A stretch of DNA of 64,000 nt, from assembly GCF_003208215.1 (NCBI RefSeq), contig NZ_QKLW01000004.1, forward strand, positions 1 to 64,000. Reading direction: 5' to 3'. The notes beneath the pieces were generated by a model. That model saw only the letters and a list, made by a program, of their open reading frames with translations. It had not been told where the DNA came from and made no database searches. The translations under genes and the position numbers were made by a program. This DNA comes from Marinomonas alcarazii (lineage in GTDB: Bacteria; Pseudomonadota; Gammaproteobacteria; Pseudomonadales; Marinomonadaceae). Shown here piece after piece: positions 1 to 22,003 of the stretch. Position 1 is the stretch's first letter. Each line of letters opens with the position of its first letter.

Positions 1-210
1 GGGCTTTTGTATTTATTCCCTCCCCTTATGAAGGGGAGGGCTAGGGTGGGGTTCTAGGGCTTTTTGACCCCCTCCCAACCTCCCCCTTGGCAGGGGGAGG
101 AGCTAAGGGCTTTTGTATTTATTCCCTCCCCTTATGAAGGGGAGGGCTAGGGTGGGGTTCTAGGGCTTTTTGACCCCCTCCCAACCTCCCCCTTGGCAGG
201 GAGGAGCTAA
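1..210. repeat. Two tandem copies of a ~106-bp G/C-tract inverted-repeat element
   Basis: Two near-identical units lie head to tail at 1-106 and 107-210; the second lacks two G residues near its end. Each contains two self-complementary blocks: a CCCTCCCC...GGGGAGGG hairpin (about 20-42 in the first copy) and a CCTCCCCC...GGGGGAGG hairpin (about 79-100). Paired C-tract/G-tract intergenic palindromes of this sort are dispersed in many proteobacterial genomes. The unit ends about 45 bp before ureG, so it sits inside or at the edge of the urease cluster and could affect upstream transcript ends. The left end is cut by the window, so there may be more copies. Confidence 0.85.
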
Positions 211-255
211 GAGCAGCAGAGATTTAATTATTTAGATAAGAACAAGGAATCCAGT

Positions 256-897
256 ATGAAAAAACAAACGTTACGAATTGGTGTGGGCGGTCCAGTAGGA
301 TCAGGCAAAACGGCATTGCTGCGTTCTTTATGTAGCGCGATGCGAGACCATTACAACATTGCCGTGGTGACCAATGATATTTATACCCAAGAAGATGCGA
401 AGTTCTTAACTCAGCATGAGGCGTTAGATGCCGATCGTATCTTGGGTGTCGAGACTGGCGGTTGCCCACATACGGCGATTCGTGAAGACGCGTCGATGAA
501 CTTGGCGGCGATTGACCAACTATTAGAGCGCCATGGCGAATTGGATGTGGTGTTTGTGGAAAGTGGTGGCGACAATCTGAGCGCGACTTTTAGTCCAGAG
601 TTATCCGATTTTACGATTTATGTGATCGATGTCTCCGCTGGTGACAAAATTCCACGAAAAGGTGGTCCAGGTATTACCAAGTCCGATTTGTTGATTATTA
701 ATAAAACTGACCTAGCCCCTTTGGTTGGCGCGTCTTTGGATGTGATGGCACACGATGCCAAGATTCAACGCGGTTATCGTCCGTTTATTTTTTCAAATCT
801 TAAAAAAGCCCAAGGTTTGGATGAAATTATTCAGATTATTGTGTCGGAAGGTATGTTGGAAGCGAAAGAAATACCAGCAGCGAAAGCCGTTGTTTAA
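256..897 (+). CDS. ureG: Urease accessory GTPase UreG
   Basis: 213 aa, the usual UreG length. UreG is the cytoplasmic SIMIBI-class GTPase that, with UreF/UreD(H) and UreE, uses GTP hydrolysis to deliver nickel to apo-urease. The P-loop GPVGSGKT is at residues 11-18, the Ni-binding Cys-Pro-His motif lies in [11 protein letters not shown] near residue 70, and the NKTD base-recognition motif is near 150. ATG at 256 follows an AAGGAA Shine-Dalgarno. No other urease gene lies downstream, so the rest of the cluster is presumably left of the window. HupE/UreJ follows after a 57-bp gap. The identification is secure. Confidence 0.97.
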
Positions 898-954: not shown

Positions 955-1539
955 ATGAATGCATTGAAAACAAAAGGTTTGTTGGTAGCGGCCTGCGTAT
1001 TAGCGTCAGGTTCTGTTCTGGCACATCCGGGGCATGAACAAGCTTCTAGCTTTATGACGGGATTTGCTCACCCAATGGGTGGTTTGGATCATCTTTTAGC
1101 GATGGTGGCGATTGGTCTTTGGGCCGCGAGCATGGGCGGTCGCGCTTTGTGGGCGATTCCGGCTGCGTTTGTTGTAACCATGTTGCTAGGCGGCGGTTTA
1201 GCTGTGGCAGGTTTGAATGTGCCATTTGTTGAGCAAGGTATTTTATTGTCTGTCATCGTTTTGGGGGCTTTGGTGTTGTTTGCTAAGCGTTTACCAACGG
1301 CGGTTTGCGTGGCGATTGCGGGTGGTTTTGCGTTATTCCATGGTGCTGCTCACGGTATGGAAATGCCTTTGAATGCCAATGGTCTGCAATATGCGCTGGG
1401 CTTTGCTTTGGCAACGGCTGGTTTACATGTGGTTGGTTTGGGTTTTGGTCAGTTAATGGCGAAAATCGGTACGTCTTTGGCGACGCGCATTAGTGGTTCT
1501 TTAATTGCGACAGCGGGTTTGTTTCTTGCTTTTGCATAA
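955..1539 (+). CDS. ureJ: HupE/UreJ family membrane protein, probable nickel transporter
   Basis: 194 aa. An N-terminal signal peptide or first helix is followed by the mature His-rich start HPGHEQ, then about six hydrophobic segments with the family hallmark HPMGGLDHLLAMVA (around residues 39-52) and a second histidine cluster, FHGAAHGMEMP (about 122-132). HupE/UreJ proteins are inner-membrane permeases found in hydrogenase and urease operons, where they import or retain nickel; the histidines are thought to contact metal. Its place directly after ureG supports nickel supply for urease. A good Shine-Dalgarno (AGGAGAAAGAG) precedes the ATG. Substrate is inferred from context, and cobalt cannot be excluded. 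Confidence 0.9.
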   Translation: MNALKTKGLLVAACVLASGSVLAHPGHEQASSFMTGFAHPMGGLDHLLAMVAIGLWAASMGGRALWAIPAAFVVTMLLGGGLAVAGLNVPFVEQGILLSVIVLGALVLFAKRLPTAVCVAIAGGFALFHGAAHGMEMPLNANGLQYALGFALATAGLHVVGLGFGQLMAKIGTSLATRISGSLIATAGLFLAFA

Positions 1540-1578: not shown

Positions 1579-4500
1579 ATGACCGCGGCACAAAAGATCT
1601 TTAAAGTGCGACGCCACTATAATAAATGGGTCGCCGACCAAACGATGGAAGACTATGCCTTGCGCTACACTTCCAAACAAGGTCATACCATGAGCATCGA
1701 GCGTGTCGGTCATACTGCGCTCGGTGCAACGGCGTTTTTGGCGTTGGAAGGTCTGGCAGCCGTTATTACTTTAGCTTATGGTTTTACCAACGCGGTGGCG
1801 GCCATTCTTACTGTGTTGGCGGTGTTTTTTATAACGGGTTTTCCCATTGCCTATTATTCTGCCAAGCATGGTTTAGATATAGACTTACTGACCAGAGGCG
1901 CGGGTTTTGGTTATCTCGGATCGACTATTACCTCGTTGATTTACGCGACTTTCACTTTTATATTCTTTGCCATTGAAGCGGCTATTTTGGCCTCTGCTAT
2001 GGAGGTTCTGTTAGGCATTCCCTTGGCCTTGGGTTACGCGCTTTCAGCAATATTTGTGATTCCCATCGTGACGCATGGTATTCGGGCTATTAGTCGTTTT
2101 CAAAACGGTACTCAATGGATTTGGTTGGTGTTGCAAGTGGCGGCTATCGGCGTGGTGGTTACGCAGGAATACCAAAACTTCGAAGGCTGGACTCAATATG
2201 CGCCGGTGGATTTACCACAAAGCACGCATTTCGATTGGATATTATTTGGCTCGGCGGCGTCTGTGTTATTTGCCTTGATGGCGCAGATTGGCGAGCAGGT
2301 CGACTATCTACGTTTTTTTCCAATCAAGAGTAAACAAAATCGTCGCCGCTGGTGGTTCTGGTTAATTTTAGCCGGTCCCGGTTGGGTGTTTATTGGCGCC
2401 ATCAAAATGCTGTTGGGCTCATTTTTGGCCTACTTGGCAATCTCCGATGGTGCTTCTGCGATACAAGCTACAGACCCAACTTACTTGTATCAGCGAATCT
2501 TTTTCTTTTTAACTACCTCTCCGACCACTGCGCTGATTTTAGCAGCGGTGTTTGTTTTTATCTGTCAGATGAAAATCAATTTAACTAACGCGTATGCGGG
2601 TTCTATTGCTTGGTCGAATTTTTTCTCACGTTTAACTCATTCTCATCCGGGCCGCGTGGTTTGGTTGGTCTTTAACGTGACTATTGCGCTATTGCTTATG
2701 GAGTTAGGCATTTATCAAGCGTTAAGTGCTATTTTAGGCGTGTTTGCCATTGCAGCAGTGAGTTGGTTAGGCAGCTTATCGGCGGATTTATTGATCAACA
2801 AGCCCTTAGGATTAAGCCCCAATTATGTGGAGTTCAAGAGGGCGCATTTATACGATATCAACCCAGTTGGAACGGGATCAATGCTAATCGCGACGACATT
2901 AGGGTTAATAAGTTATTTAGGAGTCTTTGGCGAAGTCGCAAAAAGCTTGTGTCATTTTATTTCTCTGGGTTCTTGCTTTGTGTTTGTGCCGTTGATTGCT
3001 TGGCTTACCAAGGGGAAGTATTACCTTGCGCGCCAAAGTCCTGAACTGATTCCAATGATTGAGCTAGCAAAGGAACGCAACCCTAAATATGTCACTCTAA
3101 CTTGTGGGATTTGTGAGAACGCTTTTGAAACTGAAGATATGAGTTTTTGCTCAGCCTATATGCAGCCTATTTGTTCCTTGTGTTGTTCTTTAGATGTGCG
3201 ATGTTTAGACAGTTGCAAGCCGAAGGCAAGCATTGGACAGCAAAGTGATTACTTTTTGAAGTTGTTTTTACCCAAGAGACTAGTGAAAGCGCTGAGCTCT
3301 CGCTTTGGCCGTTTTGCTTCCTTATTGCTAATAATCAATATTATCAATGCAGCACTGATGATGTTGATTTATACGCAAATGGCACCGAATTCAGCAAATG
3401 AAGTGGTTTTGTTAAAAGACACTATGTTGGCCTTATTCTTCACGCTATTGATCGTTTCTGGTGTGTTGTCATGGCTATTCGTATTGGCTCATGAAAGCCG
3501 TTTAGTGGCTCAGAAAGAGTCCAATCGTCAAACTCGAAAACTGATTCGCGAGATTGACGCTCACCAAGAAACGGATCGCGCATTACAAAATGCAAAAGAG
3601 CAAGCCGAGCAGGCAAACGAAGCAAAAAGCCGATATCTTACTGGTATTAGCCACGAATTACGCACGCCGCTGCAATCTATTATTGGTTATGCGCAACTCT
3701 TGTCCGAGAAAGCCAATACGCCATCAGGGCACCAGAACGGTTTGGATATCATTCATCGTAGTGGTTTGTATTTGGCGGATTTGATCGAAGGTTTGTTGGA
3801 TATTTCGAAGATAGAAGCGGGGCGCTTTGATCTATACCGCAATACGGTAGATCTGCCGAAATTGATCGATCAGTTAAACAGCATGTTTTCTATGCAGGCT
3901 CGTGACAAAGGTATTCAACTGCAATCTAAAATTCTCGCCCCTTTGCCTCAACACGTGGTGACAGACGAAAAGCGTTTGCGGCAAATCTTGATCAATCTGT
4001 TATCAAATGCGGTGAAATACACACCAAAAGGCTCGGTTTTGTTTGAAGTGAATTATCGCAACCAAGTGGCGGAGTTTGTGATTCGCGATACAGGTGTTGG
4101 TATTAAAGAAGGACATCTAAAACGTATTTTTGATCCCTTCGAGCGAGTCCGCGACATCAGCACTGGCAATTTACCCGGCACAGGCTTGGGCTTGACCATA
4201 GTGAAGCTGTTGACGGAAATTATGGGCGGTGATTTGCAGGCGCGCTCAGTGGTCGGCGAGGGCAGTGAGTTTCGCGTTAGTCTGATGTTGCCTTGGGTCA
4301 GTCAAGGAGACGGCTCTGCTTATGAATATAAACGCATCGTGAGTTACCGCGGTTATCAGCGCACTCTGATGGTAGTGGACGATGACCCAGTGGTACGTGG
4401 TTTGTTGTCGGATATTCTGGTGCCGCTGGGCTTTAATGTTCTGGAAGCCTCCGACGCTGAAGCTTGCTTGGATGAGCTGGATTCTTGCTCGCCAGATTTA

Positions 4501-5016
4501 TTCGTATTAGATGTCTCCATGCCCGGTATGGATGGGTTGAGTTTAGCTAAGTTGCTACGTGATCAAGCTTATAGTGCGCCAATTATTATGTTGTCTGCTG
4601 ATGCCAAAGAGAATCAGCGTAAGCCTGATGAGCAAGCGGCGTTTAATCAGTATTTAGTCAAACCGGTTAATAACAGCGCCTTGTTGGATGCGATTAAACA
4701 TTGGTTGGTGCTTGATTGGGTTTATCAAGAAACAGAATTAGACACCTTAGCACCGACTGTCATTCAGAAGCTTTCAGGAAGCAGCGAAGAGCAAGAGCAA
4801 AAAGTGTTAGATGAACCGACCATTCCAGACCATGAAAGTGTGCGTGAACTAATGGCGTTCGCAGAAATGGGTTATAAAAAGGGCGTGCGTGGTGTGCTGG
4901 ATCAATTGGCTAAAACAGACGTAATCGCTCCGAATCATTTGCAGCACTTAGAAAGTTTGTATCAAAGTTTTCAGTTCGATGCGATTGCCCAATATATACA
5001 AAAAAGTCATGTTTAA
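1579..5016 (+). CDS. NCS1/cytosine-permease-like transporter fused to hybrid histidine kinase-receiver
   Basis: 1145 aa with three parts. Residues about 30-480 are a polytopic (12-TM-like) domain resembling purine-cytosine (NCS1) permeases. A cysteine-rich linker of about 508-545 (eight or more Cys, starting CGIC) could bind metal or an Fe-S cluster. Two more TM segments and a coiled coil (~640-680) follow. The kinase has a HisKA box with phospho-acceptor H692 in SHELRTP, a HATPase domain with N box, DTGVGI and GTGLGL, and a receiver with phospho-acceptor D978 in VLDVSMPGMDG. It resembles CbrA-type transporter-kinase fusions but with a different transporter family. It lies 39 bp after ureJ and 27 bp before a response regulator, which suggests sensing of a nitrogen compound such as a purine, pyrimidine or urea. 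The ligand is unknown. Confidence 0.88.
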   Translation: MTAAQKIFKVRRHYNKWVADQTMEDYALRYTSKQGHTMSIERVGHTALGATAFLALEGLAAVITLAYGFTNAVAAILTVLAVFFITGFPIAYYSAKHGLDIDLLTRGAGFGYLGSTITSLIYATFTFIFFAIEAAILASAMEVLLGIPLALGYALSAIFVIPIVTHGIRAISRFQNGTQWIWLVLQVAAIGVVVTQEYQNFEGWTQYAPVDLPQSTHFDWILFGSAASVLFALMAQIGEQVDYLRFFPIKSKQNRRRWWFWLILAGPGWVFIGAIKMLLGSFLAYLAISDGASAIQATDPTYLYQRIFFFLTTSPTTALILAAVFVFICQMKINLTNAYAGSIAWSNFFSRLTHSHPGRVVWLVFNVTIALLLMELGIYQALSAILGVFAIAAVSWLGSLSADLLINKPLGLSPNYVEFKRAHLYDINPVGTGSMLIATTLGLISYLGVFGEVAKSLCHFISLGSCFVFVPLIAWLTKGKYYLARQSPELIPMIELAKERNPKYVTLTCGICENAFETEDMSFCSAYMQPICSLCCSLDVRCLDSCKPKASIGQQSDYFLKLFLPKRLVKALSSRFGRFASLLLIINIINAALMMLIYTQMAPNSANEVVLLKDTMLALFFTLLIVSGVLSWLFVLAHESRLVAQKESNRQTRKLIREIDAHQETDRALQNAKEQAEQANEAKSRYLTGISHELRTPLQSIIGYAQLLSEKANTPSGHQNGLDIIHRSGLYLADLIEGLLDISKIEAGRFDLYRNTVDLPKLIDQLNSMFSMQARDKGIQLQSKILAPLPQHVVTDEKRLRQILINLLSNAVKYTPKGSVLFEVNYRNQVAEFVIRDTGVGIKEGHLKRIFDPFERVRDISTGNLPGTGLGLTIVKLLTEIMGGDLQARSVVGEGSEFRVSLMLPWVSQGDGSAYEYKRIVSYRGYQRTLMVVDDDPVVRGLLSDILVPLGFNVLEASDAEACLDELDSCSPDLFVLDVSMPGMDGLSLAKLLRDQAYSAPIIMLSADAKENQRKPDEQAAFNQYLVKPVNNSALLDAIKHWLVLDWVYQETELDTLAPTVIQKLSGSSEEQEQKVLDEPTIPDHESVRELMAFAEMGYKKGVRGVLDQLAKTDVIAPNHLQHLESLYQSFQFDAIAQYIQKSHV

Positions 5017-5043
5017 TCCGTGGTGTAAGTGAGAAATCTAATT

Positions 5044-5955
5044 ATGAATCCGAGTAGTAAAAGTGACATTGTATTAGTGGTTGACGACTCACCAGATGCG
5101 TTGAGCCTGATTCATGACACCTTGGAAACAGCTAATATGGATGTGCTTGTCGCCCTTGAGGGAAAGCAGGCTTTAACCATCGCCCGACGGATTCGTCCTG
5201 ACATTATTTTGCTCGATGCCCTTATGCCGAACATGGATGGTTTTGAAACTTGTCGAGCGCTTAAAGCCGACCAAAGTTTGGCGTCGATTCCGGTTATTTT
5301 TATGACGGGGTTGAGCGATACCGATGATATTGTGCGTGGCTTAGAAGCGGGTGGTGTGGATTATCTCACTAAGCCAATTCAACCCAATGAGCTAATTGCT
5401 CGCATGCGCGTGCACTTGTCTAATGCTCGTTTAAGCAATAACGCGCAATCGGCTCTTGATAGCATGGGGCAATATTTGATGACAACGACTTACGCAGGCG
5501 AAATTGCTTGGGCGACGCCACAAACCTACGCCTTGCTTGCCAAAGCTCGCGCCAGCAGTGAATGGCAAAATACGGAATTAGCCCTACAAATACGACTTTG
5601 GTTAGCTCATCACCCCGTGGTCGGAAACGTCTTGAAACTCAGCGGCTTGGAATACCCTTTGGCGTTGAAAATGATGGGAATTACTGAGCAAAAAGAAGTG
5701 CTTCTAAGATTGGAAGATGGTGATAAACCGACAGGCCCTGCATTATTAAAGAAAGAACTGGATCTAACTGATCGCGAGTCCGAAGTATTGCACTGGATCG
5801 CCAATGGTAAAACCAATCGAGAAATCGCCGAAATCCTAGAGATGAGCCCGCGTACAGTCAACAAACACCTAGAGCAAATTTTCCCTAAGCTTGGTGTTGA
5901 AAATCGGACCTCCGCTGCAGGTGTGGCTTTGCGAATTTTATCGGCAGATCGATAG
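5044..5955 (+). CDS. Response regulator, receiver plus LuxR-type HTH
   Basis: 303 aa from the ATG at 5044; an in-frame GTG at 5029 is possible, but AAGTGAG sits at a suitable distance from the ATG. The N-terminal receiver has the acidic pair VVDDS, phospho-acceptor D58 in LDALMPNMDG, and the conserved Lys in TKPIQ. A middle region of about 90 residues has no recognised motif. The C-terminal LuxR/GerE HTH includes LTDRESEVLHWIANGKTNREIA and SPRTVNKHLEQIF. It is the obvious partner of the preceding transporter-kinase and probably activates genes for uptake or breakdown of the sensed compound. The targets are not visible here. Confidence 0.9.
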   Translation: MNPSSKSDIVLVVDDSPDALSLIHDTLETANMDVLVALEGKQALTIARRIRPDIILLDALMPNMDGFETCRALKADQSLASIPVIFMTGLSDTDDIVRGLEAGGVDYLTKPIQPNELIARMRVHLSNARLSNNAQSALDSMGQYLMTTTYAGEIAWATPQTYALLAKARASSEWQNTELALQIRLWLAHHPVVGNVLKLSGLEYPLALKMMGITEQKEVLLRLEDGDKPTGPALLKKELDLTDRESEVLHWIANGKTNREIAEILEMSPRTVNKHLEQIFPKLGVENRTSAAGVALRILSADR

Positions 5956-6070
5956 TTTTGGTAGGGTGTTTGCTATTGTTTAGGCTTAACTTTAGGTAAG
6001 CATTTACTTATTTTATAAACGCACAGATTACTCTATGCTGCCATTTTACCGCATCGAAGAAGGTGTTCTA

Positions 6071-6514
6071 ATGTCTATTGAGAAATCCATCGAGTTATCG
6101 CTTCCCGTTGTTTACAAGGTGAATCAGGCTATAACGGCTAAGCAGTTTGTTGAGTTGCTGGCAAAAACGACATTGGGCGCGCGTCGTCCTATCGATGAGA
6201 CTGTAACAATAGAGGCTATGTTGGAAAATGCTAATTTATTGATTACGGCATGGCAAGGCGAGGCCTTGGTCGGCGTGGCGCGTTCAGTGACGGATTTTGC
6301 CTTTTGTTGTTACTTATCGGACTTGGCGGTGGACGAATCTGTTCAGGCGTCGGGCATTGGTAAAACGCTGATCCGAATGACCAAGGAAGCCTTACAACCT
6401 AAATGTTCCTTGATTCTATTGTCAGCTCCTCTGGCCGTGGATTACTACCCTAAAATTGGTTTTACTCAACATAATAGTGCTTGGGTGTTGACGAATGTTG
6501 ATGACTTGAAATGA
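6071..6514 (+). CDS. GNAT family N-acetyltransferase
   Basis: 147 aa from the ATG at 6071; an in-frame ATG at 6035 would add 12 residues, but the GAAGAAGG sequence favours the second start. The GNAT fold is recognised by DLAVDESVQASGIGKTLI, the acetyl-CoA pyrophosphate-binding Q/R-x-x-G-x-G/A loop around residues 85-100, and the C-terminal YPKIGF motif. Substrate cannot be predicted; small GNATs of this kind act on amines, amino acids or protein N-termini. It stands alone, with about 100 bp of noncoding DNA on both sides. Confidence 0.85.
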   Translation: MSIEKSIELSLPVVYKVNQAITAKQFVELLAKTTLGARRPIDETVTIEAMLENANLLITAWQGEALVGVARSVTDFAFCCYLSDLAVDESVQASGIGKTLIRMTKEALQPKCSLILLSAPLAVDYYPKIGFTQHNSAWVLTNVDDLK

Positions 6515-6619
6515 TTTTTCTTGACCAAACAGCTTACCTAACGCCTACTACCGCTCATGTCATGCCGCTTAAATGGTGCGGTATTGTCTTATCAATAAAA
6601 GGCTTTTAAGGCGCTGGTT

Positions 6620-6949
6620 ATGAAGATTACAGATTTACCCTTTGGCATTACCGATTGGCAAGGTGTGGAAAAAACGACCCACAAGGGCGAGAGCGGTTTT
6701 GCCTATTGGCAGACTAAGCAGTTCGGCGATATTCGAGTGAGAATCGTGACTTATTCTGCGGGTTATTTAGCAGATCATTGGTGTACCAAAGGACACATTC
6801 TTTTTTGCATGAGTGGCGAGCTGAAAACGGTATTAAAAGACGGTCGTACTTTTGTTTTATCCGCAGGCATGAGCTATCAAGTGGCGGATGATGCTGAGCC
6901 GCATCGTTCATCCACCTCGGAAGGGGCAACGCTATTTATTGTCGATTGA
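6620..6949 (+). CDS. Small cupin protein (DHCW-motif type)
   Basis: 109 aa forming a single cupin barrel. The motif region LADHWCTKGHILFCMSGEL (about residues 49-67) corresponds to the variant cupin motif 1 of the small 'DHCW motif' cupin family, in which Asp/His/Cys replace the usual GX5HXH ligands; here the order reads D-H-W-C. The second half has a Gly-rich turn (LSAGMSYQVADDAEPHRS) with a possible motif-2 histidine. No catalytic role is established for the family. The gene is monocistronic and ends just before a bidirectional-looking terminator. Confidence 0.8.
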   Translation: MKITDLPFGITDWQGVEKTTHKGESGFAYWQTKQFGDIRVRIVTYSAGYLADHWCTKGHILFCMSGELKTVLKDGRTFVLSAGMSYQVADDAEPHRSSTSEGATLFIVD

Positions 6950-6979
6950 GTTGCGTCGATTCCATAGTAATGATTAATA

Positions 6980-7012
6980 AAAAGCAAAATCATCCTGTGG
7001 TTTTGCTTTTTG
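6980..7012. terminator. Rho-independent terminator between cupin gene and GlxA-type regulator
   Basis: A perfect 10-bp stem AAAAGCAAAA/TTTTGCTTTT (6980-6989 with 7001-7010) around an 11-nt loop, with A and T tracts outside. It lies between convergent genes and could stop transcription from both sides. Confidence 0.75.
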
Positions 7013-7035
7013 CGTTGTTCACTGTATTGGCCCGA

Positions 7036-7980
7036 TTAGCGGGGTAAAGAAGAAACAAAACGTTTGCGAAAAGCGCTGGGCGTTAATCCCATTATTTTCT
7101 GAAAGGTTTTACGGCAACTTCCCACATCTTCATATCCTACCTGCAACGCGATACTCTCGAACGGCAGCGTTGTTTGCTCTAACGCATCGCAAGCAGCTTG
7201 AATGCGGATACGTTGTAAGTATTCATTTGGGTTTAACCCTGTGCATTTAGCAAAGTGTCTTAAGAATGTTCTTGGTGTGAGTTTGGCAAAAGCGGCCATG
7301 TTTTCGGTGCTTTTTAGTTCGGCAAAATGGCCTTGTAAATAATGCTGAACAGCTAGAATAGCGGCATCGCCATGGTCGAAATTAGGCTGAAACTGTTGGT
7401 AGTAGCGTTGCTCTCTTTTGCCAGTATCGATTACCAAGGTTTTGCTAAGCTGGCGAACGATATGAGCATTTGTCAGAGCTTGTACTAATTCCAGCGCCAG
7501 ATCCATCCAAGACATCATTCCGCCGGCACTGATGATATCGCCTTGATTGATCAAAATCTTCGACGTATCTATCGCTTGTTTTGGGAAGCGTTCCTTGAAC
7601 AATGCCTCCAATGCCCAGTGTGTTGTCATCTGGCGTTTTTCTGTTAGGCCTGAGTAAGCCAAAAAGAACGCGCCAGCGCAGGCGCTGCAAAGTATGGCTC
7701 CATGTTGATGTTGTGCAATTAAAAAATTATTGATGATGGTGTTTTTCACACTGTAGCTGGCTTTGTTTAGAGTCGGGGGCAACAAAACCGCGTGATAGTG
7801 CGATTGCGTGTCTAATTCTGCCTGCAGGTCTTCCATGTGTAAAATATGCGTAGTAATACGAACTTCTAACCCCGTTGTTTTGCAGGCTTCATTGGCTAGT
7901 TCGAAGGTTTCTGCAAAACCATAAACAGCCGATAAAAGGGAGTGGGGATAAGCAAGCACAGCGATTTGATAATGTTTCAA
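7036..7980 (-). CDS. GlxA family transcriptional regulator (DJ-1/PfpI domain plus AraC HTH)
   Basis: 314 aa from a TTG start at 7980. The N-terminal DJ-1/PfpI-like amidotransferase fold (about residues 1-180) contains a nucleophile-elbow-like CSACAGAFFLA stretch. The C-terminal AraC domain (~215-314) has two HTH motifs ending in VGYEDVGSCRKTFQKIMGLTPS. The reading frame stays open upstream to 8118, but that part overlaps the divergent hydrolase gene. The only strong Shine-Dalgarno (AGGAGG, 8006-8011) serves an ATG in another frame, which ends after seven codons in a TGA overlapping this TTG. The start is therefore uncertain: coupled reinitiation, or a frame error near the 5' end. It probably controls the divergent isochorismatase-family gene. 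Confidence 0.85.
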   Translation of the reverse strand: MKHYQIAVLAYPHSLLSAVYGFAETFELANEACKTTGLEVRITTHILHMEDLQAELDTQSHYHAVLLPPTLNKASYSVKNTIINNFLIAQHQHGAILCSACAGAFFLAYSGLTEKRQMTTHWALEALFKERFPKQAIDTSKILINQGDIISAGGMMSWMDLALELVQALTNAHIVRQLSKTLVIDTGKREQRYYQQFQPNFDHGDAAILAVQHYLQGHFAELKSTENMAAFAKLTPRTFLRHFAKCTGLNPNEYLQRIRIQAACDALEQTTLPFESIALQVGYEDVGSCRKTFQKIMGLTPSAFRKRFVSSLPR

Positions 7981-8000
7981 GGTTTTATCCTGCTTGTCAT
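7977..8000 (-). other. Seven-codon leader ORF (MTSRIKP) overlapping regulator start
   Basis: ATG at 8000 has a consensus AGGAGG five bases upstream, yet its frame closes after Met-Thr-Ser-Arg-Ile-Lys-Pro at TGA 7979-7977. That stop shares two bases with the TTG at 7980 (sequence TTGA), a geometry typical of translational coupling. It may be a genuine leader peptide, or the true start of the regulator with an indel in the AAAACC stretch. Confidence 0.45.
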
Positions 8001-8015
8001 TTATGCCTCCTAATA

Positions 8016-8029
8016 TGTCAAATTTGACA
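8016..8029. promoter_or_regulatory. Perfect 14-bp palindrome in the divergent intergenic region
   Basis: TGTCAAATTTGACA is perfectly self-complementary. It lies between the GlxA-type regulator and the hydrolase, immediately upstream of the regulator's AGGAGG. Its right half contains TTGACA, which could be a -35 hexamer for the hydrolase promoter, so a bound protein could repress. The binder is unknown; the neighbouring regulator is one candidate. Confidence 0.5.
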
Positions 8030-8092
8030 CTGTGATGGAATCTATTGTTTTGCGATGCTAACGTTTTAAACGCAACCCTATAGGAGTTAACA

Positions 8093-8611
8093 ATGAGCCG
8101 CACTGCATTATTAGTCATCGACCCACAAAACGACTACTTCACTAATGGTAGCTTTCCTCTATGGAATGCCGATGAAGCCCTGAAAGAAATAATCAACGCC
8201 ATTCAAGCCGCGAAAGAGCAAGATGCCGCTGTGATCCTTGTGCAACATGTGGCTGCAAGCGAGTCACCATTATTTGCTGAAGGCAGCGAAGGGGCAAAGC
8301 TTCATCACGCGATTCTTGAAGCGGCACCTGATGCACCAGTGATCACGAAAAAACACGCCGATGCGTTTCAGGACACCAACCTAACGCAAGTGTTAGAAGA
8401 ATTGGAAGTTGATCGTTTAGTCATCTGCGGCATGATGACGCAAAACTGTGTGACTCATACCGCCATCTCGGATGCGGCCTATCTTTATCAAGTCAGCATA
8501 TTGCCTGATGCTTGTACTACCCGTGAACAACTATTGCACCTAATCGCTTTAGAGGCGATTAAGGCTAAAGTGACCTATACCGACATTCAGCACGCTTTTG
8601 AGCGAGTTTAG
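8093..8611 (+). CDS. Isochorismatase-family cysteine hydrolase
   Basis: 172 aa. The family catalytic triad is visible: D10 in LLVIDPQNDYF, a Lys at 86/87 in VITKKHADAF, and nucleophile C119 in CGMMTQNCVTHTA, followed by the conserved D(A)C region near the end. Members hydrolyse amides or vinyl ethers (nicotinamide, N-carbamoyl compounds, isochorismate). The substrate cannot be decided from sequence. ATG 8093 follows TAGGAG. It is divergent from the GlxA-type regulator, a common pairing for this family. Confidence 0.9.
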   Translation: MSRTALLVIDPQNDYFTNGSFPLWNADEALKEIINAIQAAKEQDAAVILVQHVAASESPLFAEGSEGAKLHHAILEAAPDAPVITKKHADAFQDTNLTQVLEELEVDRLVICGMMTQNCVTHTAISDAAYLYQVSILPDACTTREQLLHLIALEAIKAKVTYTDIQHAFERV

Positions 8612-8744
8612 GTGGGAACTTTTAACGAGAATGAGAAAGCGTTGAAAGGCAGAAAATAAGAGGGCTGTGTAAGAGGTTGGTTGAAAAATAGCCTGTTAAT
8701 CAACTACTTTCGAAGATTTATTACACATAAATTGCATCGACTTC

Positions 8745-8773
8745 TTGGCAAGCGGCGAGCATGTCGCTATAAT
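8745..8773 (+). promoter_or_regulatory. Sigma-70 promoter of the tRNA gene
   Basis: TTGGCA (8745-8750), a 17-bp spacer and a consensus TATAAT (8768-8773) end about 14 bp before the tRNA 5' end. This is a strong promoter of the kind expected for a stable RNA gene. Confidence 0.8.
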
Positions 8774-8787
8774 CTGCAACGCTTTTA

Positions 8788-8864
8788 GGGCCTGTAGCTC
8801 AGTTGGTTAGAGCATCCGACTCATAATCGGCAGGTCCCCAGTTCAAGTCTGGGCAGGCCCACCA
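8788..8864 (+). tRNA. tRNA with CAT anticodon, probably tRNA-Ile2 (lysidine type)
   Basis: 77 nt including encoded CCA. The acceptor stem GGGCCTG pairs with CAGGCCC; the D loop, a T arm with GTTCAAGT, and the anticodon loop CTCATAA are all present. CAT reads Met or, after TilS modification, the Ile codon AUA. The acceptor pairs C4-G69 and C5-G68 match determinants known for TilS recognition in E. coli tRNA-Ile2, unlike elongator tRNA-Met, so Ile2 is preferred. The 3' part from 8819 is the attachment site of the downstream element, and the tRNA is kept intact. Confidence 0.9.
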
Positions 8865-8878
8865 TATAAAATAAGCCT
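8819..8878 (+). repeat. attL: 60-bp direct repeat, 3' part of tRNA plus terminator arm
   Basis: Identical over 60 bp to 23355-23414. It runs from the anticodon loop through the CCA end into TATAAAATAAGCCT, the first arm of the tRNA terminator. The sequences diverge on both sides (G versus A before, CT versus TA after), which defines the repeat as the product of tyrosine-recombinase integration. Confidence 0.93.
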
Positions 8879-8917
8879 CTAGAGAGTTAGTGAATGCTAA
8901 TCTCTAGAGGCTTTTTT
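8873..8917 (+). terminator. Element-supplied terminator of the tRNA
   Basis: The 13-bp stem AAGCCTCTAGAGA/TCTCTAGAGGCTT (8873-8885 with 8901-8913) has an inner TTAG/CTAA extension and a T tail. Its first six bases are in attL and the rest is element DNA, so the integrated element provides a new terminator for the tRNA. Confidence 0.85.
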
Positions 8918-8927
8918 ATTTGTTGTG

Positions 8928-10289
8928 CTACACGGGTGCTACAGTGTAGTACAGTGCCTTCTCAATTGTATGGCCTTCCTTCAACATCTTTGGTACAACT
9001 TTTTTAATATTTGAAAGAGATATAGGTTCATTTTTGTCGTGTCCTTCGTTTATCTCTGAATTAAGTATCTCGACATAAGACATATTGAGCCCTATCTTTT
9101 TGTAAAACCAACGTTCATTGCGTACCAATAAGCGGTCTGTTGTGACTAGACGTTCTCTTCGAGATAGCATTGCTTCTAGTACAATTGCGTTGATGAGCCA
9201 GAAAGGGTGTTGTGAGGCTTCGTAGTGATTGTTTAAAAGGCCTTCAGAGTATAATGTTTTACTTAGATCTTTTAGTGAGGATGCGTTTGAGATGGCTTCG
9301 TTTAACCCGTTGGGTAAGTCTGGCAGCGAAGCCGCAAACTCTTGAAATTTTGAGATGTTAACATTACTCCAATGCTCTTGTTTTAGATCATATACCATTG
9401 AATGTATAAATGAGTTCGTTGGTAGTGCAGGAGTTTCTGTATCAGGAACCTCTTCAATCATAAAGTTGCTATGAAGTCGGAAATCATTATGTTGTACCAA
9501 GTTTCTCTTAAGCTTGTAGTTATCTAGCATTTTTTTTTCATCAGGCTCCAATGCTTCAAATACTATTTTCCCTAATCTATTTGATTTGTTTGAATCTACA
9601 ATCGATGTTTGATGCTTAGGACAAAGCCCACTATTATTCGCTACTCTATAGCAAAACTTGCAGAGTAAGAAATCTGTAGATTTTAGAAGATGAGAGCTAA
9701 GCTTGTTTTTTTCTACTTCTTGAGAAAAATTATTTAAATATGAATGAGTATTTCGTTTAGAAATTATTTCATGGGAATCTTTTAAGAGTAAGTAACAAAG
9801 CTTTGATTCTGCTAATAGAAATTCGAGTTGCGGTGTACTACTTAACAGTAAATAGTTGTCTTTGATCTCTTGTCGATAGGTTTTAATTTGATTCAATATT
9901 GAAAATATTTTACTACTTTTTGTTTTCCCCCATTCTTTCGATGACCAACTTTCGTGATTTGATATTTCTATTAAGGCTTGTTGTAAGCTACGAAAATCTA
10001 TTTTTATATTTTCATTTATAATAAATGGGAATAACCCATAACTTTTTAATTTATCAGAATGATTTGAAAGTATTTTCAATAAATTATTTTCTAAAATACG
10101 AAGATATGATCTTGTGCTGTTTCGTTGTTCAAAAGATATATAGAATTTTTCAACTGAAAAATAGTCGGAAATTTCTTTTAAACATGTAGAGCAATATTCA
10201 CCTATTTCATCTTCAAACTCTTTAAATTGTCTATAAAAAATCAATGATAACTCTGACTTGATTTCATTTGTTTTATGCTCGTTTGACAT
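8928..10289 (-). CDS. Hypothetical protein with a Cys/His cluster, adjacent to attL
   Basis: 453 aa, not recognised. It has a highly charged, AT-rich, largely helical N-terminal half and one probable zinc knuckle near residues 210-228: CKFC followed by CPKH. A separate CSTC pair lies near residue 35. No P-loop, nuclease triad or membrane segment is evident. It is transcribed towards attL, opposite to the mobilisation genes, with an AGAGGA Shine-Dalgarno before its ATG, and it begins about 95 bp from the divergent excisionase-like gene, so the two may share a control region. It could be accessory cargo or an element-maintenance factor. Confidence 0.75.
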   Translation of the reverse strand: MSNEHKTNEIKSELSLIFYRQFKEFEDEIGEYCSTCLKEISDYFSVEKFYISFEQRNSTRSYLRILENNLLKILSNHSDKLKSYGLFPFIINENIKIDFRSLQQALIEISNHESWSSKEWGKTKSSKIFSILNQIKTYRQEIKDNYLLLSSTPQLEFLLAESKLCYLLLKDSHEIISKRNTHSYLNNFSQEVEKNKLSSHLLKSTDFLLCKFCYRVANNSGLCPKHQTSIVDSNKSNRLGKIVFEALEPDEKKMLDNYKLKRNLVQHNDFRLHSNFMIEEVPDTETPALPTNSFIHSMVYDLKQEHWSNVNISKFQEFAASLPDLPNGLNEAISNASSLKDLSKTLYSEGLLNNHYEASQHPFWLINAIVLEAMLSRRERLVTTDRLLVRNERWFYKKIGLNMSYVEILNSEINEGHDKNEPISLSNIKKVVPKMLKEGHTIEKALYYTVAPV

Positions 10290-10383
10290 AAAAAATCCTC
10301 TTGGCTACTTTTTTGTAAACTTTCCCACGTGACCCCAAAAAATATCATCATTAGTCTATAGCTGTCTAACAACGAGGACTTAG

Positions 10384-10629
10384 ATGATGAAAGAAAAAGA
10401 TAGATCTAATTTGATTTCCACTAATGGAAAACAAGGTTTGTTGAGTCGTAATGAAGCAGCCCAATTTTTGGGTGTACGTCACCAAACTTTGAGTACTTGG
10501 GCTTGCAATGGGCGCTACGGATTGCGTTATGTGAAGATTGGACGTAGAGCAATGTATCGTGTTTCTGATCTAGAGGATTTTTTAGACCGTCGTACGATTA
10601 CTCATTGTGGGGAGTTGAGAGATGAGTAA
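10384..10629 (+). CDS. Excisionase-like MerR-type helix-turn-helix protein
   Basis: 81 aa. A single winged HTH of the excisionase/HTH_17 type spans about residues 18-70, with LLSRNEAAQFLGVRHQTLS as the HTH and a basic wing (KIGRRAMYRVSDLEDFLDRR). Such proteins steer integrase towards excision or activate element promoters (Xis/AlpA-like). ATG 10384 lies downstream of ACGAGGACT; a second ATG follows directly. It is the first gene of the rightward mobilisation cluster and is divergent from the 453-aa protein. Confidence 0.82.
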   Translation: MMKEKDRSNLISTNGKQGLLSRNEAAQFLGVRHQTLSTWACNGRYGLRYVKIGRRAMYRVSDLEDFLDRRTITHCGELRDE

Positions 10630-10723
10630 ATTAACAGCTTTTCTATCAGACCCCAACGCACCTGACGATGCATTCAGTGTCTTATGGAAATCGGAGCTAT
10701 CGCTTGAGTCTCTCACAGAGTAG
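10622..10723 (+). CDS. Small ORF (33 aa) overlapping end of excisionase-like gene
   Basis: ATG 10622 overlaps the last codons of the preceding gene by 8 bases and runs 33 codons to TAG 10721-10723. GGGGAGTTGAGAG just upstream may act as a Shine-Dalgarno. The peptide is acidic with a Trp and a Leu/Ser-rich tail (SELSLESLTE). No family is recognised. The overlap and clean end suggest coupled translation, but a chance ORF is possible. Confidence 0.35.
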   Translation: MSKLTAFLSDPNAPDDAFSVLWKSELSLESLTE

Positions 10724-10738
10724 CTGATTTCAGTTAGA

Positions 10739-10809
10739 GAATTGATTTCTCAATTCCATTATTAAAAGTTTAACTAATTCAATTGTTTAAGGCGGATTTC
10801 ATTGAAATC
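10739..10809. promoter_or_regulatory. Inverted-repeat cluster upstream of the relaxosome gene: candidate oriT/operator
   Basis: Two perfect inverted repeats lie in the 103-bp gap before the ribbon-helix-helix gene: GAATTGA-4-TCAATTC (10739-10756) and GATTTCA-1-TGAAATC (10795-10809). Relaxases usually nick beside such repeats, near the gene for the accessory DNA-binding protein, and those proteins also repress their own promoters. The AT-rich spacer between them fits an oriT. No nic site can be assigned. Confidence 0.4.
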
Positions 10810-10826
10810 ACGCTCAGGGAATTTTT

Positions 10827-11102
10827 ATGTCTAAAAAAAGTGTAAGTCGAGCAATCACAGTACGTTTTTCAGCGTCAGATTATAACCGTATCGTAAACGA
10901 TGCTGAACAAAAAAATGAGTCAGTCGCGGAGCATATTCGAACCATCATTTCAGCAAATGATGAACAGCTATCTCTAGATCAACGATTTGTAAATTTAGAA
11001 CGTCGTATTACTAATCGAATGTTTTCAATTGTATGTGCTGTTGCAAATATTAGTGATCATGAGCGTGAGATTGCTAGACAGCGCTTAAATGGAGGTAACT
11101 AG
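10827..11102 (+). CDS. Ribbon-helix-helix relaxosome accessory protein (MobC/TraJ-like)
   Basis: 91 aa. The N-terminal part (SRAITVRFSASDYNRI, then a helix with EHIRTII at about 35-43) has the strand-helix-helix pattern of RHH DNA-binding proteins of relaxosomes. The C-terminal half (about 50-88) is helical and may dimerise or contact the relaxase. It ends in GGAGGT, which supplies the Shine-Dalgarno for the next gene. Its position before coupling-protein and relaxase genes supports a role in oriT recognition and autoregulation. The family is inferred from pattern and context. Confidence 0.75.
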   Translation: MSKKSVSRAITVRFSASDYNRIVNDAEQKNESVAEHIRTIISANDEQLSLDQRFVNLERRITNRMFSIVCAVANISDHEREIARQRLNGGN

Positions 11103-11104
11103 TG

Positions 11105-12826
11105 ATGAGAACTACACCAAACGAAAAAACACAGGATTGGAATTCAATTTTCTTGTCATTTGGGATTTTTTTTGTATTTTTTTATTGCTTTATTATATGG
11201 CTAACATGGAATTGGCTTACTGGATGGGGTGATATTTCTGAATATTATGAATATTTTTTAAGCTTCTTTAAAAAGGTAGCGTTAGGTGGTTCTGGTTATG
11301 ATTGGATTCAGTACTGGAATTGGTTAGAAAGAGAAAGTTTAGTATTGCATTTCTATATTCATTTGATAGCTCCATTATTATTTTCATTTCTGGTTTCTTA
11401 TAAATTAACAAAGAAACTAGTTTGGGAAGAAGGTGGTCGTGATCTTAGTAGGCATGTTGAGGGTTCTAAGTTATATATAGGGAAACGAGCTATATCTGTT
11501 ATTAAGAAAAAAACAAAAAAATCTCTGAAAAAGGCAGGATGGAAAAGTAGAGGGATTACTATTTATCCAAATTCTTCCCTAACAAAAAAAGAGGAACAGT
11601 CAAATGTTTTAATTTTAGGTACTGCGGGTGGAGGTAAAACTACAGTTATTTTGCCAATGATGGATCAGGTCATAAATAGAAATGATAAAGCTTTTATTTA
11701 TGATGAGAAAAAGGAGTTTACAACTTTTTTCTTGAACAACAAATCGATCTTGATCGCGCCTTGGGATGATAGGTCATTTAGGTGGGCTATCGAAAACGAT
11801 ATTCAGAATGAACATGACGCTGAAATGATAGCAGCTAATTTAATTCCAGATGGCAATTCACATGATCCGATGTGGATAAAAGGAGCGCGGCTTATTTTTA
11901 CCGGAATGCTGGTTAGTCTCTTGGAGGAAGGTGAGCCTTGGGGCTGGGGTAGTATCAATCAACGTATTCAGCTACCCCAATCTGATATGTTATCTCTATT
12001 ACAGCGTTACTATCCAATTGCAGCATCATTTGTAATCGATGGTTCTAAAACTACACAGGGGTTCTATGTGAATTTGATAGCGGAGCTTAGCTGGATTGAG
12101 ACTTTAGCGGTTGCATGGCGGGATTCAGATAGGCCAAGGTTTTCTATTCGAGAGTGGGTGAATAGCAATCATAAAAAAGGACGAAATACGCTTATTGTGC
12201 AGTCTGATCCTCGATATAAATCGATTGGAGCACCATTATGTAACGCGTTATTGTCGCTGATGACAAAGCATTTTCTATCCCAATCAATGAAAAATGTTCG
12301 GGACACTTGGTTGTTCATTGATGAAATGGCAAACCTTCCGCCAAATCCGAGTATCAAAATGTGGCTGGAGCTAGCGCGAGCGCGTGGAGGGCGTGCCGTT
12401 TTTGGAACTCAATCAATTTCACAGATTAAGAAAAATTATCAAAATGATGCTGATACGATTTTAAATCTATTCTCTGTTGTGGTTGCTATGCGTGTAGGTA
12501 GTGCTGGAGGAGAATCTGAATATGTTTCCAATATGTTCGGAGATCGCATTGTTGAGCGACCGTCACAGGTTGGTAACGAAAAAACATGGCAGCGGTCTAT
12601 TGAGGCAATTGTTAGTGAACATGATTTAACTCACATTGAAATGCCATCAAAAAAAGGCGTAATTGGCTATCTCATGGTGCCTAGCTGGGAAGGTGTATTC
12701 CGTTTGCAATGGCCTCTTTTCAAGAAAAAGCCTATTGCGGAGGAGCATGTTCCTGCGAAATGGTTAACTGAACGTCCCAAAAAAGAGAGTAGGCCTGAAA
12801 ATAAACTGTTCGGAGGTCGTCCATAA
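11105..12826 (+). CDS. traD: Type IV coupling protein, TraD/VirD4-like
   Basis: 573 aa from ATG 11105 (the TAG of the previous gene ends at 11102; GGAGGT lies 8 bases upstream). Two N-terminal TM segments (about residues 15-36 and 78-95) anchor it in the inner membrane. The cytoplasmic ATPase has Walker A GTAGGGKTT (172-180) and Walker B LFIDEMAN with D406/E407, then a conserved arginine-rich ARARGGRAVFGTQS region. TraD-family proteins bring the relaxase-DNA complex to the type IV secretion channel. The stop overlaps the ATG of the relaxase gene (TAATG), so the two are translationally coupled. No secretion genes follow, so the channel must come from elsewhere. Confidence 0.92.
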   Translation: MRTTPNEKTQDWNSIFLSFGIFFVFFYCFIIWLTWNWLTGWGDISEYYEYFLSFFKKVALGGSGYDWIQYWNWLERESLVLHFYIHLIAPLLFSFLVSYKLTKKLVWEEGGRDLSRHVEGSKLYIGKRAISVIKKKTKKSLKKAGWKSRGITIYPNSSLTKKEEQSNVLILGTAGGGKTTVILPMMDQVINRNDKAFIYDEKKEFTTFFLNNKSILIAPWDDRSFRWAIENDIQNEHDAEMIAANLIPDGNSHDPMWIKGARLIFTGMLVSLLEEGEPWGWGSINQRIQLPQSDMLSLLQRYYPIAASFVIDGSKTTQGFYVNLIAELSWIETLAVAWRDSDRPRFSIREWVNSNHKKGRNTLIVQSDPRYKSIGAPLCNALLSLMTKHFLSQSMKNVRDTWLFIDEMANLPPNPSIKMWLELARARGGRAVFGTQSISQIKKNYQNDADTILNLFSVVVAMRVGSAGGESEYVSNMFGDRIVERPSQVGNEKTWQRSIEAIVSEHDLTHIEMPSKKGVIGYLMVPSWEGVFRLQWPLFKKKPIAEEHVPAKWLTERPKKESRPENKLFGGRP

Positions 12827-15336: not shown

Positions 15337-15483
15337 GAGGATAGGTGAAAGAGGTTTCTGGATGTGGGGTTTTTAGGATATGTCACAAGGCTTTATATTA
15401 GGGTAGCTATATTGAAACTGCGTTTTTTAGGGGACAATTCGCTATCTCTACTTATGTATTTAATTACGTTTAAGGAGAGAAAT

Positions 15484-15816
15484 ATGGATTTTTTAACGAG
15501 CAGTATACTATCAGGGGTGCTCTATGATGGTTTTAGACGAGGCGCCTCGATATCATCTACTTTTTTGAAAGAGAAGCTTCAGGGTTGGATTCTAGATGAT
15601 GTTCTATTGGAAGGCTTAACAGCTAAAGTGAACGAGCTTAAATTGCAAGATTATGGTGAGCATGTCATTGAGCGTAAGTTAGATGAATCTGAGTCATTGC
15701 AAAAAATTTTAGAGCAGATCAAACCAGATCAAAATACAACAATTGGATCAGTGACTCAAAATCATAGCGGTTCAGGTGACAACATTGTCGGGAACAAAAC
15801 TGTTTATCATAAGTAG
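15484..15816 (+). CDS. Small partner protein of a two-gene module, with C-terminal GSGDN motif
   Basis: 110 aa from ATG 15484, chosen because AAGGAGAG lies 5-12 bases upstream; an open frame from 15364 lacks such a site. The N-terminus is hydrophobic and Gly-rich (residues 1-40, including SGVLYDGFRRGA), the middle is helical and charged (40-80), and the tail repeats a short motif, HSGSGDNIVGNK (94-105), that recurs in the next protein at 23-34. No enzyme motif is seen. The partner starts only 12 bp downstream. The pair recalls two-component anti-phage systems with a small companion plus a TPR/PIN effector (GAPS6-like, from memory and untested). Confidence 0.7.
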   Translation: MDFLTSSILSGVLYDGFRRGASISSTFLKEKLQGWILDDVLLEGLTAKVNELKLQDYGEHVIERKLDESESLQKILEQIKPDQNTTIGSVTQNHSGSGDNIVGNKTVYHK

Positions 15817-15828
15817 GTAGATTATTTG

Positions 15829-19128: not shown

Positions 19129-19213
19129 AGTACATACTGGGAAGTGCAGTGTTTACCAAAACATCAGATCGAAACCATTGCACTAATTATGTTGTCTATA
19201 TTTGAGGAACGCT

Positions 19214-19900: not shown

Positions 19901-19901
19901 T

Positions 19902-20939: not shown

Positions 20940-20944
20940 TTTTT

Positions 20945-21967: not shown

Positions 21968-22003
21968 TACTAGTTTTTTAAAATAGATAATGTCTAACTT
22001 GCT

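Follow-up and report, generated by a model that had tools for sequence, protein, structure and literature searches.

A hybrid histidine kinase with an NCS1-type transporter domain as a candidate urea or amide sensor in Pseudomonadota

Two adjacent genes of Marinomonas alcarazii, found in a stretch of 64,000 nucleotides that was analysed as a whole (the window), encode a hybrid histidine kinase of 1145 amino acids and its LuxR-type response regulator partner. Together they probably constitute a two-component system responsive to urea or a short amide, with the palindrome TACGTCAnnTGACGTA as the site through which it would govern the urtABCDE operon. In the proposed pathway the kinase would read urea, or a short amide closely related to it, with a permease domain of the NCS1 fold, in which the usual hydroxyl ligands of the sodium site are replaced. 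A structural cysteine finger, presumably binding zinc, and then a transmembrane hairpin would relay the conformational state of this domain to H692, from which phosphate would travel to D978 and then to D63 of the regulator, which would act on the urea/amide uptake operon through the palindrome. It therefore looks as if a transporter fold had been put to new use in sensing a nutrient. The features of the system are collected in Table 1.

Table 1. Features of the kinase, its regulator and the adjoining urease genes in the window.
Feature	Position	Strand	Evidence
ureG, urease operon end	256..897	+	NCBIfam TIGR00101, E 8.7e-98
hupE/ureJ-type gene, 39 bp before the kinase	955..1539	+	PF04955, E 2.6e-58
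Hybrid sensor kinase: NCS1-like domain, Cys finger, TM hairpin, HK and receiver	1579..5016	+	ORF list, Pfam, alignment, AlphaFold2 model
NCS1-fold transmembrane domain, about residues 22–486	1642..3036	+	AlphaFold2 model, structure match to CodB, hhalign
Eight-cysteine finger, residues 509–546, C-x2-C-x11-C-x7-C-x2-CC-x5-C-x3-C	3103..3216	+	Alignment
Predicted membrane helix pair after the finger, about residues 575–637	3301..3489	+	Model, and hydrophobicity by eye from the sequence
HisKA, residues 682–748, phospho-acceptor H692	3622..3822	+	Pfam, E 2.4e-16
HATPase_c, residues 795–903	3961..4287	+	Pfam, E 5.6e-25
Receiver domain (Response_reg), residues 931–1040, D978	4369..4698	+	Pfam, E 2.8e-24
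Cognate LuxR-type response regulator, 308 aa, D63	5029..5955	+	Pfam Response_reg, E 5.1e-29; GerE (LuxR HTH), E 7.4e-20

The original prediction of a permease-like sensor fused to a hybrid kinase, with a LuxR-type regulator of its own, is borne out by the Pfam domains of both proteins and by the fold match described below. An in-frame ATG lies at position 5044 inside the regulator reading frame. In an alignment of relatives the phospho-acceptor H692 is conserved in all 99 rows and D978 in 97 of them, being missing from two short kinases (L169 and L170). The AlphaFold2 model of the kinase has a mean pLDDT of 77, and in it the membrane helix pair (helices 575–601 and 606–679) runs on into a long signalling helix.

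Single-sequence and profile searches with the permease part gave nothing of weight against Pfam or the PDB, and none of 23 members had PF02133 among its Pfam families at E-values as high as 10, in a search where the HMMER filters drop most weak matches. The fold and intermediate homologues were therefore needed to place this domain. A profile of the permease part matches stand-alone NCS1-type proteins with an hhalign probability of 99.9 (E 6.5e-34); three of these five proteins (L112, L114 and L115) score above the Pfam Transp_cyt_pur (PF02133) cut-off and two (L113 and L116) below it, and their profile in turn matches CodB (E 8.8e-20) and Mhp1 (E 3e-10). When the model was compared with known structures, CodB (7qoa_A) was the best match, with Z 35.1 and rmsd 3.4 over 397 aligned residues of model positions 22–480, followed by Mhp1 at Z 26.4–29.8, while the next family reached 25.1. 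An SLC5 transporter domain was rejected, as SLC5-type structures (5nva, CHT1 and DUR3) gave Z 22–23 against 35.1 for CodB. The membrane domain is thus NCS1-like, as had been proposed, with the NCS1 version of the LeuT fold in the model and homology to NCS1 proteins via the intermediates. The proposal that the sensor is transporter-like (a transceptor) is also supported.

Residues of the kinase were mapped to CodB through a chain of sequence alignments rather than by structural superposition. On this mapping the CodB sodium ligands Thr278 and Thr279 align with K332 (99/99 rows) and I333 (98/99), so that the hydroxyl ligands of the CodB-type sodium (Na2) site appear to be replaced in the kinase. 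The stand-alone relative L112 has R-I at the same two positions, showing that the substitution is not confined to sensors, and the loss of the Na2 hydroxyls does not by itself exclude membership of the NCS1 family.

The finger that follows the membrane domain contains C509, C512, C524, C532, C535, C536, C542 and C546. A cysteine-rich linker had been predicted at about residues 508–545, and the actual span is one residue off at either end. All eight are conserved, far beyond chance, in each of the 80 covering rows and, in a wider set, in 99 of 99; of the small modules inspected, none is as invariant as the finger. Among the 397 genomes sampled it was found only in the fusion of NCS1 domain and kinase, all 71 strong matches lying just C-terminal to the permease part of 71 kinases. 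In the model the linker forms four strands and short helices and weakly resembles FYVE, PHD, RING and ZZ fingers (best Foldseek E 0.13, best Z 4.0), while its profile gave weak and partial matches only in the PDB, to C2H2 fingers and CRIPT. A zinc-binding role for the finger would be in keeping with these resemblances.

It is possible, if unlikely, that the pair controls urt in response to a cytosolic cue, such as nitrogen or energy status or the metal or redox state of the finger, with the NCS1 part serving as an anchor or low-capacity carrier. The SLC5 transporter domain of CbrA is reported, in passages of PMC9100948, not to be essential for signal perception; by the same token, sensing here may lie outside the NCS1 part, and the exceptional invariance of the finger would also suit such a role. 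Against this, the NCS1 domain is more conserved than a bare anchor would need, with 52–80% identity over residues 1–560 between the window kinase and 22 diverse relatives and many invariant residues in the alignment. Binding of the ligand by the NCS1 domain is the favored reading.

To what genes the kinase is linked was determined across 397 sampled Pseudomonadota genomes. At least 71 kinases were found in at least 65 genomes, about one in six; these are lower bounds, as no more than the best three candidates per genome were scored, and three further genomes with stand-alone hits only were left out. A regulator homologue adjoins the kinase at 40 of 43 distinct loci checked and at 70 of 80 loci in another set. 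Neighbors were searched again in the 65 genomes with up to 25 candidates each, the UrtA list covering the stronger matches, which makes the following counts minima. At least 60 of the 71 kinases have urtA within 15 kb (divergently oriented in 52, of which 44 lie within 1.5 kb), at least 42 have the formamidase gene fmdA within 20 kb, and at least 26 have ureC within 20 kb, or 27 if the window, where ureG and ureJ adjoin, is counted. One or more of the three genes lies near at least 67 kinases (68 with the ureG and ureJ of the window). In the 397-genome comparison, for which the best four UrtA and best three UreC candidates per genome were scored, UrtA occurs in at least 64 of the 65 kinase genomes versus at least 126 of the 332 others (p 1.7e-22, in a test that ignores kinship). 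Annotation covered the more frequent neighbors of the kinases, and the commonest of these are urea and amide genes. In Marinomonas the urease genes come after urt in the same co-directional run. The system is also present in 524 of 72,556 plasmid records, Klebsiella accounting for 342; such records label the protein as “ATP-binding protein,” “response regulator” or “ArcB.”

The predicted link with urea is thus supported by the neighboring genes, while the more specific tie to urease is not, ureC being near fewer kinases than fmdA or urtA. This bears on the suggestion that the cysteine cluster senses nickel (or redox state) and so tunes urease, for which the adjacent ureG and HupE/UreJ genes, the eight conserved cysteines and the presence of urease somewhere in at least 62 of the 65 kinase genomes could be cited. 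All eight cysteines are kept by the 40 kinases that have fmdA but no ureC within 20 kb, a point against nickel sensing specific to urease; the structural neighbors of the finger are mostly zinc fingers, weakly matched, and urtA has the sole high-identity box of the window's own genome. We consider nickel sensing very improbable, though slightly less so given the widespread urease genes. Homologues without urease linkage exist, as the original prediction had allowed might count against it, whereas homologues without the conserved cysteines, named in the same breath, are absent from the 99 rows.

The palindrome was found de novo as TACG-N8-CGTA in 23 of 31 divergent urtA/kinase intergenic regions, while no such palindrome appeared in more than six regions in any of 20 shuffles. 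With up to two mismatches the full consensus occurs in 28 of 30 distinct regions. Apart from the discovery set, the box was present at 28 of 30 named loci. In a further comparison kept separate from discovery, 17 of 20 kinase genomes carried TACGTCAnnTGACGTA upstream of urtA, against none of 20 that have urtA but yielded no kinase (Fisher p 2.6e-8, kinship being ignored and the control genomes coming from partly different families). The only site with at most one mismatch in the window's own genome lies 130 bp before urtA; within the window there is one site with three mismatches, at 28846, which is no more than chance (1.44 expected). The box is absent upstream of urtA in genomes G314, G286 and G361, and a variant sought in the first two was not found. 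It is also absent at L106 in G260, at the second system of G148 (L119) and at L059 and L077, and none was seen in Sinorhizobium medicae pSMED01. By eye, boxes of the form TACGCC...CGTA in family f11 (seven genomes) pair with a regulator recognition region P-A/M-T-x-K-K-H-L-E in place of PRTVNKHLE, and the locus of the second G148 regulator, which has PNTINAHLA, lacks the box. Recognition region and box thus appear to vary together in two cases, as would be expected if the regulator binds the box, where it presumably acts as an activator.

That the NCS1 domain instead binds a nucleobase or an allantoin-type catabolite upstream of urea, as in the purine/pyrimidine transceptor first suggested, is highly doubtful: its best fold matches are indeed cytosine and hydantoin carriers, but CodB Gln105 is replaced by Thr126 (99/99) and Trp108 by Phe129 (86 rows) or Leu (13), the recurrent annotated neighbors are urea and amide genes, the box before urtA points to a urea pump, and an NCS1 carrier for metformin, a biguanide, is described in the abstract of PMC13390362, so NCS1 proteins need not bind nucleobases. 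Columns separating urease-linked from fmdA-linked kinases were sought, and no clean pocket switch was found. At position 299, which probably sits in a loop, all four urease groups have D and fmdA-linked kinases mostly have E (34 of 43, with seven D and two Q), and nine of the 13 kinases with Leu at position 129 are urease-linked and of one clade; we claim no specificity residues from either position.

The best explanation by analogy is that the pair would work like CrbS/CrbR, on an NCS1 fold. According to passages of PMC5715377, CrbS/CrbR likewise combines a hybrid kinase of transporter fold with a LuxR-family regulator and an inverted repeat upstream of uptake and assimilation genes; it differs in its SLC5 fold, STAC linker, acetate signal and repeat, where the system described here has an NCS1 fold, an eight-cysteine finger and probably urea or amides. 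CbrA, an SLC5-STAC kinase for histidine (PMC13022988, in part), and RpuS (PMC9100948, in part) are also transceptor-type kinases, of a different family and linker. In CbrA K196 occupies the sodium site, as K332 aligns with a sodium ligand here, but the SLC5 lysine is on TM6 and K332 is on the helix aligned with CodB TM8. The ammonium sensor kinase Ks-Amt5 similarly reuses a transporter domain as a nitrogen sensor on a histidine kinase; it has the Amt fold and apparently only DHp and CA subdomains, and a cysteine finger goes unmentioned in the passages of PMC5764959. CodB and Mhp1 share fold and family with the sensor domain and are, in passages of PMC9379551, stand-alone sodium-coupled carriers, unlike the kinase with its replaced hydroxyl ligands. 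Passages of PMC13296017 describe a second urtABCDE operon in Ectopseudomonas guguanensis G3 beside LuxR-family two-component genes including a hybrid histidine kinase, with fmdA next by locus tag. Compared by this description, the locus is very likely a member of the NCS1-kinase family; it is given there as annotation, the passages containing no analysis of domains, finger or box.

No description of an NCS1-fold kinase or of the box was found in titles, abstracts and passages of the open-access literature, and an earlier one is possible. With about even confidence, we propose that this is the first recognised NCS1-fold kinase, in which a permease without sodium-site hydroxyls reads external urea or formamide and a zinc finger private to the family relays its movement, and that urease and formamidase operons have exchanged the module repeatedly, that Klebsiella plasmids have also acquired it, and that its control of the urea/amide pump via one conserved box has been retained throughout. 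If so, NCS1 would join SLC5 and Amt as transporter folds reused for kinase sensors, and the eight-cysteine finger would take the position of STAC as a new coupling module. The proposed signalling route for urea and amides would come with a candidate ligand class, a partner regulator and a DNA box, and the natural urease- and formamidase-partnered kinases would offer a direct route to how a permease pocket became a sensor. Its occurrence in about one in six sampled genomes and on Klebsiella plasmids would make it relevant to how marine, soil and clinical bacteria use nitrogen.

By sequence alone, residues 1–500 of the hybrid kinase return nothing of weight in Pfam or the PDB. A 23-row profile of the permease part (A1), searched in 397 sampled Pseudomonadota genomes, retrieved the full-length kinases along with a small number of stand-alone frames (437–552 codons). 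Three of five stand-alone frames pass the Transp_cyt_pur cut-off, and the kinase permease alignment matches the stand-alone alignment with an E-value of 6.5e-34 (hhalign). An AlphaFold2 model of residues 1–680 (50 rows, mean pLDDT 77) has CodB as its best structural match (Z 35.1, rmsd 3.4, 397 aligned), followed by Mhp1 (Z 26.4–29.8), with other LeuT-fold families at 25.1 or below; Foldseek likewise ranks CodB and Mhp1 at the top. Because of these matches and the hhalign result the NCS1 assignment is right, and with the Transp_cyt_pur passes they bear out the NCS1-like sensor of the original prediction.

Residues were mapped to CodB by chained alignment; the reference residues, from passages of PMC9379551, are the sodium ligands Thr278 and Thr279, and Asn280, Gln105 and Trp108. 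K332 and I333 align with the two sodium ligands, N334 with Asn280, T126 with Gln105 and F129 with Trp108. K332, N334, T126 and E133 are invariant in 99 kinases. Of these, 98 have Ile at position 333; at position 129, 86 have Phe and 13 have Leu. Since the stand-alone relative L112 carries Arg at 332, loss of the sodium ligands may be older than the fusion.

The eight finger cysteines are conserved in all 80 rows that cover them and in all 99 of a wider set. A 49-row finger profile gave 71 strong matches in the same 397 genomes (E 2.7e-18 or better), every one no more than 600 bases downstream of a kinase's permease part, and all 71 kinases have one; the next match (E 7.6e-5) lies in a 50-codon frame. 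Modelled alone (mean pLDDT 73.5), the finger resembles known structures only weakly (Foldseek E 0.13 and Z 4.0 at best), but many of the top rows are zinc fingers of the cross-brace or treble-clef type (PHD, FYVE, RING, ZZ). We read the finger as a putative structural zinc module, corresponding in position to the STAC linker of SLC5 kinases.

With up to three candidates scored per genome, A1 matches occur in at least 68 of the 397 genomes, and after removal of three with stand-alone hits only (G038, G160, G170) there are at least 71 kinases in at least 65 genomes. Of the 71 kinases, 60 have the uptake gene urtA no more than 15 kb away, 52 of them in divergent orientation; within 20 kb, the formamidase gene fmdA accompanies 42, ureC 26, and both genes two. 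Four kinases (G000, G111, G361, G147) have no urtA within 15 kb and no fmdA or ureC within 20 kb; that of G147 is on a 4,779-bp contig, and that of the window (G000) is at a contig end with ureG and ureJ adjoining. UrtA (E 1e-100 or better) is found in 64 of 65 kinase genomes versus 126 of 332 others, and UreC in 62 of 65 versus 116 of 332. A quick tree (100 rows, 14 of them in no group) needs 7 changes for urease linkage versus 24.8 with shuffled labels, and 6 versus 28.7 for fmdA linkage. The urease-linked kinases, as read off the tree, form four groups with fmdA-linked ones in between, and the module has thus probably swapped its partner hydrolase several times while retaining the UrtA-type pump. 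The sensor is encoded in 524 of 72,556 plasmid records (342 named Klebsiella, 78 Sinorhizobium); in a K. pneumoniae example, formamidase-urtEDCBA is divergent from the kinase. The K. pneumoniae IncFIB plasmid NZ_MH745929.1 (L173) has formamidase, urtEDCBA and the sensor kinase at 5909–15381, with clpK/hsp20 heat-survival genes nearby.

The window begins with the first base of C4, one of the 21 contigs of a 3.97 Mb genome, and the remaining urt-ure operon genes sit at the end of contig C5. Nearest named relatives are Marinomonas species (identity up to 97% over the queried part), and many Marinomonas loci have the single-direction order urtB-C-D-E-ureD-A-B-C-E-F-G-J-kinase-regulator. The identities of urtA, urtB, urtC, urtD and ureC come from NCBIfam (one representative each), while the other urt/ure labels are putative, given by order, size and likeness. 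A tandem repeat at the very end of C4 is probably what split the operon between the contigs. In one Marinomonas branch (L024–L029) kinase and regulator lie downstream of rhlE or other genes, with no labelled urt or ure gene within 10 kb. Farther into the window, two 71-bp direct repeats (93% alike) enclose integrase, relaxase, coupling-protein and DarT-like genes, an arrangement resembling a mobilizable element that sits in a tRNA gene.

Features of the kinase locus, the split operon and the neighbouring element (window positions unless marked C5)
Feature	Position	Strand	Remark
Tandem repeat	1–211		106-bp unit present twice, ahead of ureG
ureG	256–897		first of four co-directional genes from contig end
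hupE/ureJ gene	955–1539		co-directional with ureG
Hybrid kinase	1579–5016		co-directional with ureG
LuxR-type regulator	5029–5955		co-directional with ureG
ureC	C5:1350–3044	-	
urtA	C5:9291–10388	-	
Box	C5:10600–10615		130 bp ahead of urtA ATG
Apparent mobilizable element	8788–23414		
tRNA-Met gene	8788–8864		
71-bp direct repeats	8808–8878 and 23344–23414		
TrwB-type coupling protein	11102–12826		
TrwC-type relaxase	13180–15336		
DarT-like gene and macro-domain partner	19202–20939		
Tyrosine integrase	22004–23191	-	

Of 43 distinct loci checked, 40 have a regulator homologue adjoining the kinase. Short stretches gave 37 positives out of 40 (one of them in two pieces) and longer stretches 13 out of 13, with ten loci represented in both sets. 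No homologue was found next to the kinase at G354 and G091:C3, and G172 gave a weak receiver match only. Among named relatives the figure is 70 of 80 loci, some of the other ten being cut by contig ends. G172 (L117/L169) and G091 (L118/L170) have fmdA-linked short kinases of about 890 aa without a receiver; the G172 kinase adjoins a receiver-HisKA-HATPase protein, with no LuxR regulator found beside the kinase. Perhaps the pathway is branched in these cases.

A palindrome search of the intergenic regions between divergent urtA and kinase genes (31 regions, 30 of them distinct and several belonging to close kin) found TACG-N8-CGTA in 23, and in 20 shuffles no such palindrome occurred in more than 6 regions. 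Longer forms give the box TACGTCAnnTGACGTA. Scored as TACG-N8-CGTA or at most two mismatches to the 14 fixed bases, the box is present in 28 of the 30 distinct regions, the exceptions being L106 and L119. L119, a second, fmdA-type copy in G148 of the window's genus, has an altered regulator recognition region and no box; by eye, and in two events only (f11, a family of genomes, and this second G148 system), recognition region and box covary. Outside the discovery set, the 601 bp 5′ of urtA contain the box in 17 of 20 kinase genomes whose urtA is on a different contig from the kinase or no closer to it than 1.3 kb, versus 0 of 20 with UrtA but no kinase found (Fisher p 2.6e-8, with kinship uncontrolled, f11 being the only family common to both sets). 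Members of f11 make up 8 of the 20 kinase genomes, all with the box, and 2 of the 20 controls, without it; 9 of 400 shuffled sequences satisfied the rule. The kinase genomes with no box in these 601 bp are G314, G286 and G361. In G335, G190, G019 and G325 the box is present with 40–244 kb between urtA and the closest kinase of its contig; G190 and G325 have an additional fmdA-type kinase.

Among 30 named loci whose urtA could be reached, several of them close kin, the rule also holds in 28 and fails in L059 and L077. All 14 bases match in 23 loci and all but one in three, whereas L070 and L071 qualify through the half-site rule only. Whole-genome scans of 12 genomes (at most one mismatch) gave a single place in each of G000, G136, G148, G393, G217 and G253, always before urtA, and two in G360, one of them before urtA. 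Kinase-free G023 has one place and kinase-free G050, G352, G062 and G110 none; the reversed control pattern matches once each in G023 and G050. On plasmids, a Klebsiella site lying between the urtA and kinase genes carries one mismatch and a Chelatococcus pCO-6 site two, and no box was seen on Sinorhizobium medicae pSMED01.

Kinases with transporter folds are already known: CbrA (PMC13022988), CrbS (PMC5715377) and RpuS (PMC9100948) with SLC5-STAC, and Ks-Amt5 with an Amt domain (PMC5764959). CrbS/CrbR is closest in working plan, sharing a LuxR regulator and an inverted repeat. The NCS1-fold family has a different fold, linker and box from the known ones, and probably a different ligand class. 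The passages available on the Ectopseudomonas guguanensis genome report a two-component pair that lies next to a second urtABCDE operon and is not analysed there (PMC13296017). Judged by titles, abstracts and passages, no earlier description of the NCS1-fold kinase was found in the open-access literature.

Taken together, these findings are most economically read as a two-component system that responds to urea/amide and serves the urt operon. We infer that the NCS1 part senses the ligand, and go no further because the available passages of PMC9100948 report the transporter domain of CbrA as not essential for perception. The identity of T126, K332 and N334 in urease- and formamidase-linked kinases fits one putative class of small amide-type ligand, although position 129 does vary. 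The pair would sense urea or amide and act on the urt operon, and in Marinomonas on the urt-ure run; as the kinase itself ends that run, a feedback loop is predicted as likely in Marinomonas.
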